Positions 43,545-47,567 of a stretch of DNA of 64,000 nucleotides are shown in pieces. The notes under the pieces were generated by a model, which saw only the letters and a program-made list of their open reading frames with translations, was not told where the DNA came from and ran no database searches. The translations under genes were made by a program, and so were the position numbers. Origin of the DNA: Saccharofermentans sp. (lineage in GTDB: Bacteria > Bacillota > Clostridia > Saccharofermentanales > Saccharofermentanaceae); the NCBI GenBank assembly GCA_024688685.1, contig JAILDX010000038.1, positions 62,001 through 126,000 of the forward strand. Reading direction: 5' to 3'. The first letter of the stretch is position 1, and every line of letters begins with the position of its first letter.

Positions 43545-44519
43545 ATGAAGAATCTTTCCTGTAAAAACTGTGGAGCCCCGATGGCTCTTGATGCTTCTGC
43601 TATGACGGCTCATTGCCGTTTCTGCGGAACACAGTATGTTCTTGATCACAAGGATACTGATTACTTTCTTGATTTCTACCGTCAGGTCAATGATCTCATC
43701 TCAGCAGAAGATGATACAAAGCGTAAAGACCTTGCTGACAGACTGTGGGATACAGCAGATGAGAAGGTGTTTACGACATCTGACGGAAGAATTGTTACAG
43801 TCTATTATCTGTATTCTTTTTCTGAACCTGAATGTGATGTTTATGTTGCCAGAAGGAATATCATCTTCCATTTCAAAAAGAACGGAGCACTGTTATCAGA
43901 CAGGTTCAGGATAAACTCTTCAATGCTTGATTATCCGTCTGCAGACACAAAGAATCTTTCAGATTTCTTCCCGAAAGTCACGGCAGGGTTTAATCTTGAT
44001 GACGGTACCGACATACTGGTCGTCGCCAAGGATGAAGACGAGTATCCTTTAAGACTGTTTGGTAAGCTTCATGGAAGACATGTTGCATGGATCATCAGCA
44101 GGATCGAGAATCTCTGCTGCGTACTTGAATATAACGGCATAGTTCATCCGCAGATCGATCCTGATACAGTGTTTATCAATCCTTATATTCATCAGGCATC
44201 CCTTTACGGAAACTGGTGGAACGTCACGAAGAACAATACTCTGTCGTCTGACAGAACGCATGTTAACACAACTGCAATGAATCTTTACGGATTACGTAAT
44301 ACCGCAGCATTCTCGCTCGGCTTTAATGATGTATCAGAGGTGACTGTAAGGGAAGACATTCCCGCACCTTTTGCCGATTTTTTGAAGAGTGCCCCTGAAG
44401 TAAACGCATACAGTGATTTCGAGAAGTGGGATAAGACGCTGATCAAGTCATTTGGCGAGAGACGTTTCTACAAATTTACGGGCGGCGAAGACGATATCTA
44501 TAAGAAAGGACAGGAGTAA
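43545..44519 (+). CDS. Zinc ribbon plus degenerate kinase-like domain
   Basis: A 324-residue protein. Residues 6-27 form a zinc ribbon ('CKNCG' and 'CRFCG'). Residues about 75-225 look like a protein-kinase fold in decay: 'DVYVARRNIIFHFKKNG' resembles an N-lobe strand pair, and 'LEYNGIVHPQIDPDTVFIN' (195-213) lines up with the kinase catalytic loop GIVHRDIKPENILI with HRD changed to HPQ and Lys/Asn lost. 'LYGNWW' stands where DFG would be. I infer a pseudokinase or ligand-binding derivative; this needs structure prediction. Its stop overlaps the ATG of the next VWA gene (TAATG), so expression is coupled. It begins the four-gene unit discussed in findings. Confidence 0.6.
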   Translation: MKNLSCKNCGAPMALDASAMTAHCRFCGTQYVLDHKDTDYFLDFYRQVNDLISAEDDTKRKDLADRLWDTADEKVFTTSDGRIVTVYYLYSFSEPECDVYVARRNIIFHFKKNGALLSDRFRINSSMLDYPSADTKNLSDFFPKVTAGFNLDDGTDILVVAKDEDEYPLRLFGKLHGRHVAWIISRIENLCCVLEYNGIVHPQIDPDTVFINPYIHQASLYGNWWNVTKNNTLSSDRTHVNTTAMNLYGLRNTAAFSLGFNDVSEVTVREDIPAPFADFLKSAPEVNAYSDFEKWDKTLIKSFGERRFYKFTGGEDDIYKKGQE

Positions 44520-45433
44520 TGGGAAGAGGTTCTTATACCGCAGGTGACTGGGCCAGTCTAAGAAGCAGCCGTAAGCTGAATGCTGTAAGCACTGTAGAAT
44601 CCATATTCACTAACAACTGCGCAGTTTCTGCTTATGACAGCAGAAATGTTGTAATCCGTGAATCGAGAGACAGTGAAGAGCATAATTCTTCTACCCCTGT
44701 CATTATCGGATTTGATGTTACTGCTTCAATGGGTTATCTTGCGAAGACACTTGCAACTGAGACGATCAATTATTCGGTCAATCAGATAATCCACAGTTCT
44801 CTTTCCAATCCGCAGTTTCTGATCGCAGCGATCGGCGATGTAAAATGCGATAATACACCTCTTCAGGTTACACAGTTTGAATCGGATATCAGGATCAACA
44901 CGCAGCTTATGGAGCTCCACCTTGAAGGCGGAGGCGGCGGTAACGGAGGAGAATCATATAATCTCCTGTGGTGGTTTGCCGCCAAGCATACTTCGACTGA
45001 TGCATTCGAGAAGCGTGGTAAAAAGGGATTTCTGTTTACGATCGGTGATGATAACTGCCATGAAGGATTAAGTGTTGTTGAGATTGGAAAAGCTTTCCGT
45101 GATACTGTCCCGTATTCGGTGTCCAATCAGGAGCTGATCGCAATGGCAGAAGAGAAGTATCATGTCATTCACATACATATCAATAACGGAACACCTGAGA
45201 GCAGAAAGATCTTCAGGAATCTGCGGGATATTCTTCCCGGAAAAGCAACGGAGATCAACATCAATGATCTTGACTGTCTCTCATATCTGATTTCATCAAT
45301 AGTTAAGATACGTCTTGGAGCTTCTGCAGGTGACGTTATGTCAGAAATTCCGCAGGAAGCAGCCGTAAAGCTGGCAAGATCGATATCATTTGCCTTCAAC
45401 GACAACAGGTCAGGTGGCTCGTTGTTCTTTTAA
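44519..45433 (+). CDS. VWA-domain protein 1
   Basis: A 304-residue soluble protein with a von Willebrand A domain. The metal-ion (MIDAS) motif is 'GFDVTASMGYLA' (66-72, DxTxS), after an unusual conserved N-terminal segment 'MGRGSYTAGDWASLRSSR' and 'RESRDSEEH'. Gly-rich 'LEGGGGGNGGES' follows 'LQVTQFESDIRI'. No signal peptide or membrane helix, so it acts in the cytoplasm. It is a paralogue of the next VWA protein, aligning with it over the full length. VWA proteins usually work as metal-dependent binding scaffolds in multi-protein complexes. The ATG overlaps the preceding stop. Confidence 0.8.
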   Translation: MGRGSYTAGDWASLRSSRKLNAVSTVESIFTNNCAVSAYDSRNVVIRESRDSEEHNSSTPVIIGFDVTASMGYLAKTLATETINYSVNQIIHSSLSNPQFLIAAIGDVKCDNTPLQVTQFESDIRINTQLMELHLEGGGGGNGGESYNLLWWFAAKHTSTDAFEKRGKKGFLFTIGDDNCHEGLSVVEIGKAFRDTVPYSVSNQELIAMAEEKYHVIHIHINNGTPESRKIFRNLRDILPGKATEININDLDCLSYLISSIVKIRLGASAGDVMSEIPQEAAVKLARSISFAFNDNRSGGSLFF

Positions 45434-45486: not shown

Positions 45487-46425
45487 ATGGGATACGGAAG
45501 TTATAAGGCATCTGACTGGGAAAGACTTAAGAACAGCAGAGGCATCAATAATTCATCAAGTGCAGCTACATTGTTTAACGGAAATGATTTCAAGGATATC
45601 TATAATCCTTTGTATATCAATTTCCGTGAATCCAGAGACAGCGAAGATTCTCCCAATTCGACACCGATTATTTTCGGGTTCGATGTAACAGGTTCAATGG
45701 ATTATCTTGCTGTTGAGATAGCTAAGAATTCTCTTAACAAGACCATTACCGAACTCTACGACAAGAAGCCCGTTACTGATCCTCACGTAATGTGTGCTGC
45801 GTTTACTGCACCGCGTTATAACGGAGATGTTATTCTGGCGGGCGCGCTTCAGGTCACTCAGTTTGAAGCCGATATCAGAGTCATTGAACAGCTTCTTGAC
45901 CTTAATGTCAAGTTTGGCGGAAACAGATACAGTTATGATGATCTTGTCTGGTATTTCGCTGCAAACCACACAGATATTGACTGCTACAATAAGAGAAAGA
46001 AAAAGGGTTACATAATCTGTATCGGTGACGAGATATGCGGTGCTGATGACGGTTCATTCCTGCGTGAGAATGATCTCCTGAAGATCTTTGGTGATAATAA
46101 GATGACAGGGCATCTCAGCAACAGGCAGATCTATGATATGGCTGCAAAGAAATACGAGATATTCCATATCGTTACTCTGATGGGATGGAGAGAGGGAAGA
46201 GCGTTTAATACCTGGAATCACTTTATGCCCGGACGGGTTGCAACGATCGGTCAGAGAGATATATCACTTCTGTCTGAGGTCATCACATCGATTATACAGC
46301 TTTCACAGGGTGCTGACAGGGAAGATGTTATAGGCCAGTGGCCGGAAGAGATCCGTTCCAAGATCAGGAAATCGGTAGAACCGATATTCCCGGATAAGCC
46401 TGTTCCTGACTGGGAAGAACCGTGA
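45487..46425 (+). CDS. VWA-domain protein 2
   Basis: A 312-residue paralogue of the preceding protein with the same start pattern ('MGYGSYKASDWERLKNSR', 'RESRDSED') and MIDAS 'GFDVTGSMDYLA' at the same residue numbers (66-72). 'LQVTQFEADIRVIEQLL' and 'KKKGYIICIGDEICG' match its sister's 'LQVTQFESDIRINTQLM' and 'KKGFLFTIGDDNCH'. The glycine-rich loop is shorter. It has no export signal. The gene begins 53 bases after its sister and its stop overlaps the GTG of the PurA-like gene (GTGA), so the two are coupled. Confidence 0.8.
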   Translation: MGYGSYKASDWERLKNSRGINNSSSAATLFNGNDFKDIYNPLYINFRESRDSEDSPNSTPIIFGFDVTGSMDYLAVEIAKNSLNKTITELYDKKPVTDPHVMCAAFTAPRYNGDVILAGALQVTQFEADIRVIEQLLDLNVKFGGNRYSYDDLVWYFAANHTDIDCYNKRKKKGYIICIGDEICGADDGSFLRENDLLKIFGDNKMTGHLSNRQIYDMAAKKYEIFHIVTLMGWREGRAFNTWNHFMPGRVATIGQRDISLLSEVITSIIQLSQGADREDVIGQWPEEIRSKIRKSVEPIFPDKPVPDWEEP

Positions 46426-47567
46426 GTATTAAGATTGTTATCGGGAAAAACTTCGGCGACGAGGGGAAAGGCCTCGCCGTCGATTATTTTTCCGCTGTTT
46501 CAGAAAAAGCCGGCAGGACATGCCTTGTAATAAGGCATAATGGTGGTGCACAGGCAGGCCATACGGTAGATCTTAAGGATAAAAGATTTGTATTCAGCCA
46601 GTTATCTTCCGGATCATTCCGCCATGCGGACACGTATCTTGCTGATTCATTCCTTTTTGATCCGTATGCATTAAAGACAGAGACGAACGGATTTGCGTGC
46701 ATAAACAGATCATTTCCGAAGATGACTGCAAGTGGAAATATCAGGTGTGTTACAGTTCTTGATGTCCTGCTGAATCAGGCGCTTGAGGATCTTCGCGGCA
46801 CTGAACGTCACGGGTCGTGCGGTATGGGGATAGATGAGACTGTTCGCCGTTCTGCCACTACGTTCAGACTTCCGCTTAATAAGGTTAAATACGGCACTGC
46901 GGAAGAGATCTTTGATTTCCTTAAAGGTATAAGGGCAGAGTATCTTCCTTCAAGACTTGAAGAGCTTAACCTGTCTATCCACGACCTTGGCAAATACAGG
47001 GACCTGATAAATAACGACATCATACTCCGCAACTGGGCTGAAGCAGCCGTTGATCAGTGCTGGATGGTTGAACTTGTGGATCCGTATTATATTACGCGAT
47101 ATGACGACATCATATTTGAAGGTGCACAGGGTCTTCTGCTTGATAATGAGAATAAAGAATATGCTCCTCATCTGACGACTTCAAGAACAGGTCTTACAAA
47201 TCCCGTCAGGATAATAAGAGATGTAATGACTGCGAAAGAGACTGAAGCTGAAGCAGTCTATGTCACAAGATCATATGTAACTCGTCACGGCAACGGTCCG
47301 CTTCCTAACGAGGCTTCTTTTACATTTCCCGATGAGACAAATGTCCCGAATGAATGGCAGGGAAGTCTGAGATTTGCTCATCATGGAAGCATGGATGAGT
47401 TTCTGATGCCTGTTCAGAGGGATATTGATACTGTATACTTTAAAGGATCACACTCATTCTTTATTACCCATCTCAACGAAATGGATCTGCCGTTCAAAGA
47501 GGAATTGAAGACTCCGCTTTATCTGTCCTGTGATAAGTATTCAGATAATATCAGATACCAAAAGTAA
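46422..47567 (+). CDS. Divergent adenylosuccinate synthetase homologue
   Basis: A 381-residue member of the PurA superfamily, about 50 residues shorter than housekeeping PurA. Kept: 'NFGDEGKGLAVD' (Asp13), 'NGGAQAGHTV' (His47) and 'IFEGAQGLLLD' (233-241). Changed: GTTGRGIGP is 'GSCGMGIDE' (131-139), the aspartate-binding TTGRxRRTGW is 'EWQGSLRFAH' (311-320), and the guanine-recognition TKLD is 'THLN' (349-352). It should still activate an oxo group by phosphoryl transfer, but the nucleotide donor and amine substrate are probably not GTP and aspartate. GTG start overlapping the VWA2 stop. The PHP gene overlaps its 3' end on the other strand. Confidence 0.82.
   Translation: MSIKIVIGKNFGDEGKGLAVDYFSAVSEKAGRTCLVIRHNGGAQAGHTVDLKDKRFVFSQLSSGSFRHADTYLADSFLFDPYALKTETNGFACINRSFPKMTASGNIRCVTVLDVLLNQALEDLRGTERHGSCGMGIDETVRRSATTFRLPLNKVKYGTAEEIFDFLKGIRAEYLPSRLEELNLSIHDLGKYRDLINNDIILRNWAEAAVDQCWMVELVDPYYITRYDDIIFEGAQGLLLDNENKEYAPHLTTSRTGLTNPVRIIRDVMTAKETEAEAVYVTRSYVTRHGNGPLPNEASFTFPDETNVPNEWQGSLRFAHHGSMDEFLMPVQRDIDTVYFKGSHSFFITHLNEMDLPFKEELKTPLYLSCDKYSDNIRYQK

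Follow-up and report, generated by a model that had tools for sequence, protein, structure and literature searches.

The PurA homologue described here belongs to a family that retains the catalytic residues of adenylosuccinate synthetase (PurA), is maintained by purifying selection, is encoded beside conserved partner genes and, in bacteria, lies in a cassette of phage origin. As a preferred, though tentative, reading of these sequences, we propose that the gene may encode the catalytic subunit of a phage-derived complex, namely a synthetase of the PurA fold whose re-specified pocket would take an amine that is not free aspartate. The enzyme is of a known kind and the module surrounding it is apparently undescribed: within open-licence papers, we found none that describes how the PurA-like, VWA and pseudokinase genes are linked, and none on the pseudokinase partner or the bacterial cassette; two wide-ranging surveys that deal with phage NAD and jumbo-phage systems leave PurA unmentioned.

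The PurA-like gene and its operon

The window, i.e. the whole stretch of 64,000 nucleotides of Saccharofermentans sp. DNA that was analysed (contig JAILDX010000038.1, positions 62,001 to 126,000), carries the PurA-like gene downstream of the genes for partners 1, 2a and 2b (Table 1). Start and stop codons overlap at two junctions, as TAATG between partners 1 and 2a and as GTGA between partner 2b and the PurA-like gene, which has a GTG start. This operon, absent from the preliminary description of the gene, is the most informative feature of the locus.

Table 1. Features of the cassette, in window positions.
Feature	Positions	Strand	Basis
Partner 1, 324 aa, N-terminal zinc ribbon and pseudokinase domain	43545..44519	+	hhalign to phage pseudokinases
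Zinc ribbon CxxC...CxxC, residues 6-27	43560..43625	+	Invariant columns of A2 alignment
Pseudokinase catalytic-loop region HPQIDPDTVFINPYIHQASLYGNWW, residues 201-225	44145..44219	+	HRD aspartate and DFG lost
Partner 2a, VWA-like (putative), 304 aa	44519..45433	+	phrog_2971 2.8e-36, MIDAS-like motif
MIDAS-like motif DVTAS, residues 66-70, partner 2a	44714..44728	+	D66, T68, S70 invariant in A3 alignment
Partner 2b, 312 aa, paralogue of 2a	45487..46425	+	phrog_2971 2.4e-27
MIDAS-like motif DVTGS, residues 66-70, partner 2b	45682..45696	+	Sequence; invariant in A3 alignment
PurA-like synthetase, 381 aa	46422..47567	+	GTG start, no internal stop
GDEGKG, residues 12-17, P-loop with catalytic Asp13 and Lys16	46455..46472	+	Asp, Lys in 153/153
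GSCGMGIDE, residues 131-139, equivalent of IMP-phosphate loop GTTGRGIGP	46812..46838	+	C133 152/153, S132 153/153
DETNVPNEWQGSLR, residues 304-317, replaces aspartate-binding TTGRxRR loop	47331..47372	+	N307, Q313, R317 conservation
THLN, residues 349-352, proposed TKLD equivalent	47466..47477	+	Last position D 56/75 phage, N 54/78 bacterial

The motifs quoted in the preliminary description are present in the protein: Asp13 within GDEGKG, His47 within GGAQAGHT, FEGAQG (residues 232-237), GSCGMGIDE, EWQGSLR (residues 311-317) and THLN. The match to Pfam PF00709 (2e-31) is confined to residues 5-299, and the scores fall below the cut-offs of both the NCBIfam PurA model (93.2 bits vs. 402) and the PurZ model NF038379 (31.9 bits vs. 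300), the best PHROG being phrog_1211 (7e-47). Profile-profile alignment of PurA with the family gives 99.8% and ends shortly before the aspartate loop, for which reason the C-terminal correspondences to PurA are uncertain; this holds for the pairing of TKLD with THLN and of TTGR with EWQGSLR, both made by eye or with MAFFT beyond the end of the profile alignment.

Conserved catalytic residues and altered binding sites

Relatives were gathered from 80 bacterial loci, 80 viral contigs and 218 phage records, mycobacteriophages accounting for 189 of the latter; residues were counted in an alignment of 153 family members, 78 bacterial and 75 phage. Asp13, Lys16, His47 (the equivalent of His41 in PurA), Gln236 (Gln224), Arg283, His289 and Asn307 are invariant, and the position of Thr252 (Thr239) holds Thr or Ser in all 153 members. 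Close pairs of PurA-like genes have dN/dS values of 0.07-0.18, i.e. the gene is under purifying selection, and these values together with the invariant residues rule out a decayed or degenerate PurA. The departures from E. coli PurA therefore represent a shared, maintained design.

On the nucleotide side, the phosphate loop GTTGRG of PurA has become RHGSCGMG, and the changes T129 to C133, V273 to H289 and N38 to Q44 at the IMP site are near-invariant in the family. Here we take the roles of PurA residues, including Val273 as a ribose contact, from what is established for the E. coli enzyme. With the IMP site altered as well, the change may concern the nucleotide acceptor no less than the amine. 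On the amine side, TNxxNxWQGxxR stands in place of the TTGRxRR loop in bacterial members, and phage members have variants of this pattern; Asn307 is found in 153/153, Gln313 in 152/153 and Arg317 in 150/153. Such a new conserved pattern suggests re-specification, not decay. The new amine site is putative, as the C-terminal third of the protein is not alignable to PurA by profile; a changed acceptor (or nucleotide) specificity is likely.

Aspartate recognition had earlier been described as lost, and this stands insofar as the loop is replaced in all 153 members. Aspartate itself is not strictly excluded: the near-invariant Arg317 could bind a carboxylate or stand in for one of the aspartate-loop arginines, among which the role of Arg303 in PurA has been addressed (PMC8342488).

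The accompanying claim that guanine recognition is lost is not supported at family level: Asp is found at the proposed equivalent of E. coli Asp333 in 56/75 members from phages and 18/78 from bacteria. Furthermore, the Thr330 position is mostly kept, and Lys331 is missing from the host's own PurA (TVMD) too. The branch of the window has Asn at the Asp position of TKLD, like PurZ of phiVC8; PurZ of phiVC8 and S-2L use ATP (PMC8342488), and a shift of phosphate donor in this branch is possible.

Pseudokinase and VWA-like partners in bacteria

Partner 1 aligns with the phage pseudokinase family over most of its length (hhalign 99.9%, E 6e-34), and that family matches PDB protein kinases at 6e-12. 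The HRD aspartate is absent from partner 1, whose catalytic-loop region aligns with phage forms such as HGALVPSHVLIHPTEHGAKIIDW, and from the phage members inspected, while DFG is lost in the bacterial form and reads IDW in many phage forms. By sequence, partner 1 is classed as a pseudokinase because it has kinase-fold homology but lacks the catalytic HRD aspartate. The cysteines C6, C9, C24 and C27 of its zinc ribbon are invariant in the A2 alignment, with a profile resembling RPB12-type zinc ribbons.

The family of partners 2a and 2b has an invariant DxTxS, in which the first MIDAS Ser is Thr, and a later conserved GD. Among 54 members, the Pfam models VWA_4 (5e-6) and VWA_2 (0.0035) each matched one; a PDB search of the family found no match, and comparison with the phage TROVE VWA (a set of three sequences) gave no profile match. 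The VWA label of both partners is putative and comes from the MIDAS-like motif, profile support being thin.

A VWA-like gene lies beside the PurA-like gene in 77 of the 78 bacterial loci, and the zinc-ribbon pseudokinase gene is found in 65 of the 66 cassettes with enough upstream DNA. VWA-like copies number one in 42 of these cassettes, two in 22 and three in 1 (n = 66). Beyond the cassette the flanks contain no recurring family (at most 3/117), which rules out a conserved wider bacterial operon; as the flanks are unrelated and the cassette is found at different genomic places, it therefore travels as a unit. None of the four cassette proteins was matched by the PADLOC-DB models, ruling out a known anti-phage defence system. 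At one locus (L071:7992-10841) the PurA-like ORF is in frame with a flagellin-like C-terminus, giving 949 aa; a near-identical locus (L073) has two separate genes, so that the long ORF was treated as an assembly join or a local event and not as a Rosetta-stone fusion.

Phage loci and origin of the bacterial cassette

In phage or viral loci, the VWA-like gene is present in 83 of 84, the exception being a contig cut at the gene edge. Across these 84 loci, 29 encode the pseudokinase as third partner and 33 a Met/Gly-rich protein; no locus has the two together, and in 22 loci neither was recognised. Several of the phage pseudokinases have an N-terminal J-domain-like HPD segment in place of the zinc ribbon, that of Cane17 matching DnaJ at 0.012. 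In this mycobacteriophage, the gene order is J-domain pseudokinase, VWA-like (with intein) and PurA-like.

Some further features of the phage loci deserve mention. The Met/Gly-rich protein, of about 200-240 aa and without a convincing Pfam match (L113:4222-4932, L114:3738-4526, L116:4486-5091 and 30 other viral loci), precedes the VWA-like gene where it replaces the pseudokinase, and it ends in a tail reminiscent of the GGM tail of GroEL. In the Cane17 VWA-like protein (L115:3897-5711), the intein-like insert, with Hint/intein matches, lies within the VWA-like region. One viral contig has a second, diverged VWA-like gene 3' of the PurA-like gene (L136:7481-8563).

PurZ had earlier been invoked as a precedent for a PurA relative of this sort; in the tree, obtained by a short search with SH-aLRT support only and with a root that rests on the PurA outgroup, the PurA-like family splits from both PurA and PurZ (SH-aLRT 99). 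All bacterial members form one clade (97) within the phage diversity, sister to two phages with the pseudokinase form (96). The reading that fits best is a single acquisition of the bacterial cassette from a large phage and its later spread.

The hosts of the family are rumen and gut Clostridia and large phages, and the cassette is also found in genomes binned as Myxococcota. Carriers comprise at least 218 sequenced phages (189 mycobacteriophages), many uncultivated large phages and about one-third of the genomes in one rumen Clostridial genus.

NAD-salvage neighbourhood in phages

NAD metabolism dominates the recognisable phage neighbours of the PurA-like gene; among the 136 scanned, these were NAPRTase (11), NAMPT N-domain (7), isochorismatase (4), NAD synthase (2), PARP (2) and NADAR (1). 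A NAPRTase or NAMPT gene lies less than 5 kb from the PurA-like gene in 12 of 17 records, where 1.0 is expected. Of two control genes from nucleotide metabolism, neither was found at that distance in any record (ribonucleotide reductase, 0/16; thymidylate synthase, 0/13; 0/29 together). The corresponding p-values (binomial 1e-11 vs. uniform placement; Fisher 1.6e-7 vs. both controls) are too small because the records are related. In many phages the PurA-like gene has NAD+ salvage and NARP2 genes (NadV/NAMPT, NadM) close by; they have no sequence relation to it and are missing from the bacterial cassettes, whose flanks hold no NAD genes alongside.

This neighbourhood bears on a somewhat unlikely alternative, namely that the enzyme serves phage counter-defence by making or repairing a small purine or NAD-type nucleotide against NAD-depleting or nucleotide-signal immunity, the Clostridial copy having been captured. 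The prominence of NAMPT/NAPRTase, nicotinamidase, NAD synthase, NMNAT-Nudix, PARP and NADAR genes and the close placement of the first of these agree with it, and the changed 5'-phosphate loop and ribose contact would suit a non-IMP nucleotide. However, RNA ligase genes show some closeness too (4/19 within 5 kb vs. 1.6 expected), which may mark a conflict-gene zone. Moreover, a NAPRTase or NAMPT gene is found anywhere in the record in 18 of 50, near the NadV background of 22-33% in phages (PMC9503650), and the bacterial cassettes do without such genes. The NAD link is real in position and may reflect a shared conflict-gene region instead of one pathway. The fixed partners and the closeness to NAD salvage nevertheless give a concrete entry to a phage function taken over by some gut bacteria.

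Several phages have TROVE (Ro60-type) RNA-binding proteins near the PurA-like gene (L168:7598-8902, L171:7244-8548, L113:9385-10890), and Thg1, RNA ligase and PARP genes lie near it in others.

A proposed complex and its possible function

Our preferred reading is that of a re-specified synthetase within a complex; retained chemistry, a new amine and physical complex formation are what we infer. The phosphoryl-transfer and 6-oxopurine residues are intact, from which the first half-reaction of PurA is argued to survive: an NTP (GTP, possibly ATP in the branch of the window) would donate a phosphate to the 6-oxo group of a purine nucleotide. As the amine site is replaced, the second half-reaction is argued to link the activated purine carbon to some amine that is not free aspartate; the pocket would be re-specified around the amine as well as on the 5' side of the nucleotide. 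The VWA-like protein, with its putative Mg-binding MIDAS motif, and the zinc-ribbon pseudokinase would act as obligate partners, probably for scaffolding or substrate presentation.

An obligate VWA-like partner might suit an NTP-driven switch, in which the PurA fold would work only as an NTPase/GTPase, remodelling or gating its VWA-like and pseudokinase partners much as in MoxR-VWA pairs, without ligation; the J-domain or Gly/Met-rich tail in phages and the zinc ribbon in bacteria would be plausible client-binding parts. We consider this unlikely: Gln236, Thr252, Ser132 and Asp13, whose equivalents in PurA we take to position the 6-oxopurine and its phosphate, are invariant or near-invariant in the 153 members and are not needed by a pure NTPase. 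VWA-type proteins are paired with a nucleotide-using or kinase-like partner in the MoxR-VWA, TerY-P and TROVE/Ro60-type systems, from which the window cassette differs in having a PurA-fold enzyme as the partner and no AAA+ ATPase, phosphatase or active kinase.

Extending the re-specified synthetase one step further, the cassette would be a novel type of conjugation system, in which a purine nucleotide, activated at C6 by the PurA-like enzyme, is attached to an amine of a protein or macromolecule presented by the VWA-like protein and the pseudokinase. This version is rather doubtful; if true, large phages would use such a modification in addition to NAD chemistry, and gut bacteria would have captured it at a later stage.

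Relationship to PurA and PurZ

The genome of the window (2.47 Mb, 40 contigs) encodes a canonical PurA on another contig (C17:4875-6131, 1e-160), which rules out the PurA-like gene as the sole purA of the organism; it also contains Lyase_1 family genes, which could include purB. Across the genus, a family copy was found in 28 of 85 genomes, 26 of these 28 also carrying canonical PurA, and the two are cleanly apart by score. The view that the gene is not the PurA of the AMP pathway is borne out: since the host has a separate canonical purA, as do 26/28 carriers, the PurA-like gene is an accessory enzyme, under no pressure to keep PurA activity.

An ordinary second PurA, i.e. an aspartate-dependent adenylosuccinate synthetase with drifted motifs, is improbable. 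Every catalytic residue is kept, Arg317 could replace Arg303 or Arg305, and the host's canonical PurA strays from the E. coli motifs itself, reading TVMD, GSTKSG and EGQLG at the quoted sites, so that such departure alone is no evidence of lost function. Yet all 153 members show an altered aspartate loop with a conserved pattern of its own, the changes of T129 to C and of V273 to H extend through the whole family, the family forms a separate branch, and the gene is locked to non-metabolic partners. The family shares with PurA (PF00709) the fold over residues 5-299, the P-loop, the catalytic Asp and His and the Gln224 and Thr239 equivalents, and differs from it in the replaced aspartate loop, the changed phosphate loop, Val273 to His, the C-terminal third and the fixed partner genes.

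Although phrog_1211 bears a PurZ-like name and PurZ/PurZ0 of Z-DNA phages are likewise phage-encoded PurA relatives with changed specificity, a PurZ-like enzyme making 2-aminoadenine precursors is so improbable as to be ruled out on sequence, and PurZ is wrong as a parent: it carries Ser instead of Asp13 (PMC12884076), which is Asp in 153/153 members here, lacks the RHGSCGMG, TRHG and WQG motifs, and forms its own branch, in line with the low score against its model. No 2-aminoadenine gene context was seen around the family.

The proteins of phrog_1211 and phrog_2971 in Bixzunavirus mycobacteriophages ('PurA-like adenylosuccinate synthetase') represent the same family and the same VWA-like partner. 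PHROGs uses the PurZ-like name, which does not suit the window branch, and mycobacteriophage annotators use PurA-like, whereas phrog_2971 has no assigned function. The database labels adenylosuccinate synthetase and PurZ-like are probably both wrong for this gene.

Finally, the canonical PurA of the host and that of relatives in its order (L001:1495-2766) are of a divergent type, with GSTKSGIAPFYSDKY, EGQLG for EGAQG and TVMD for TKLD.
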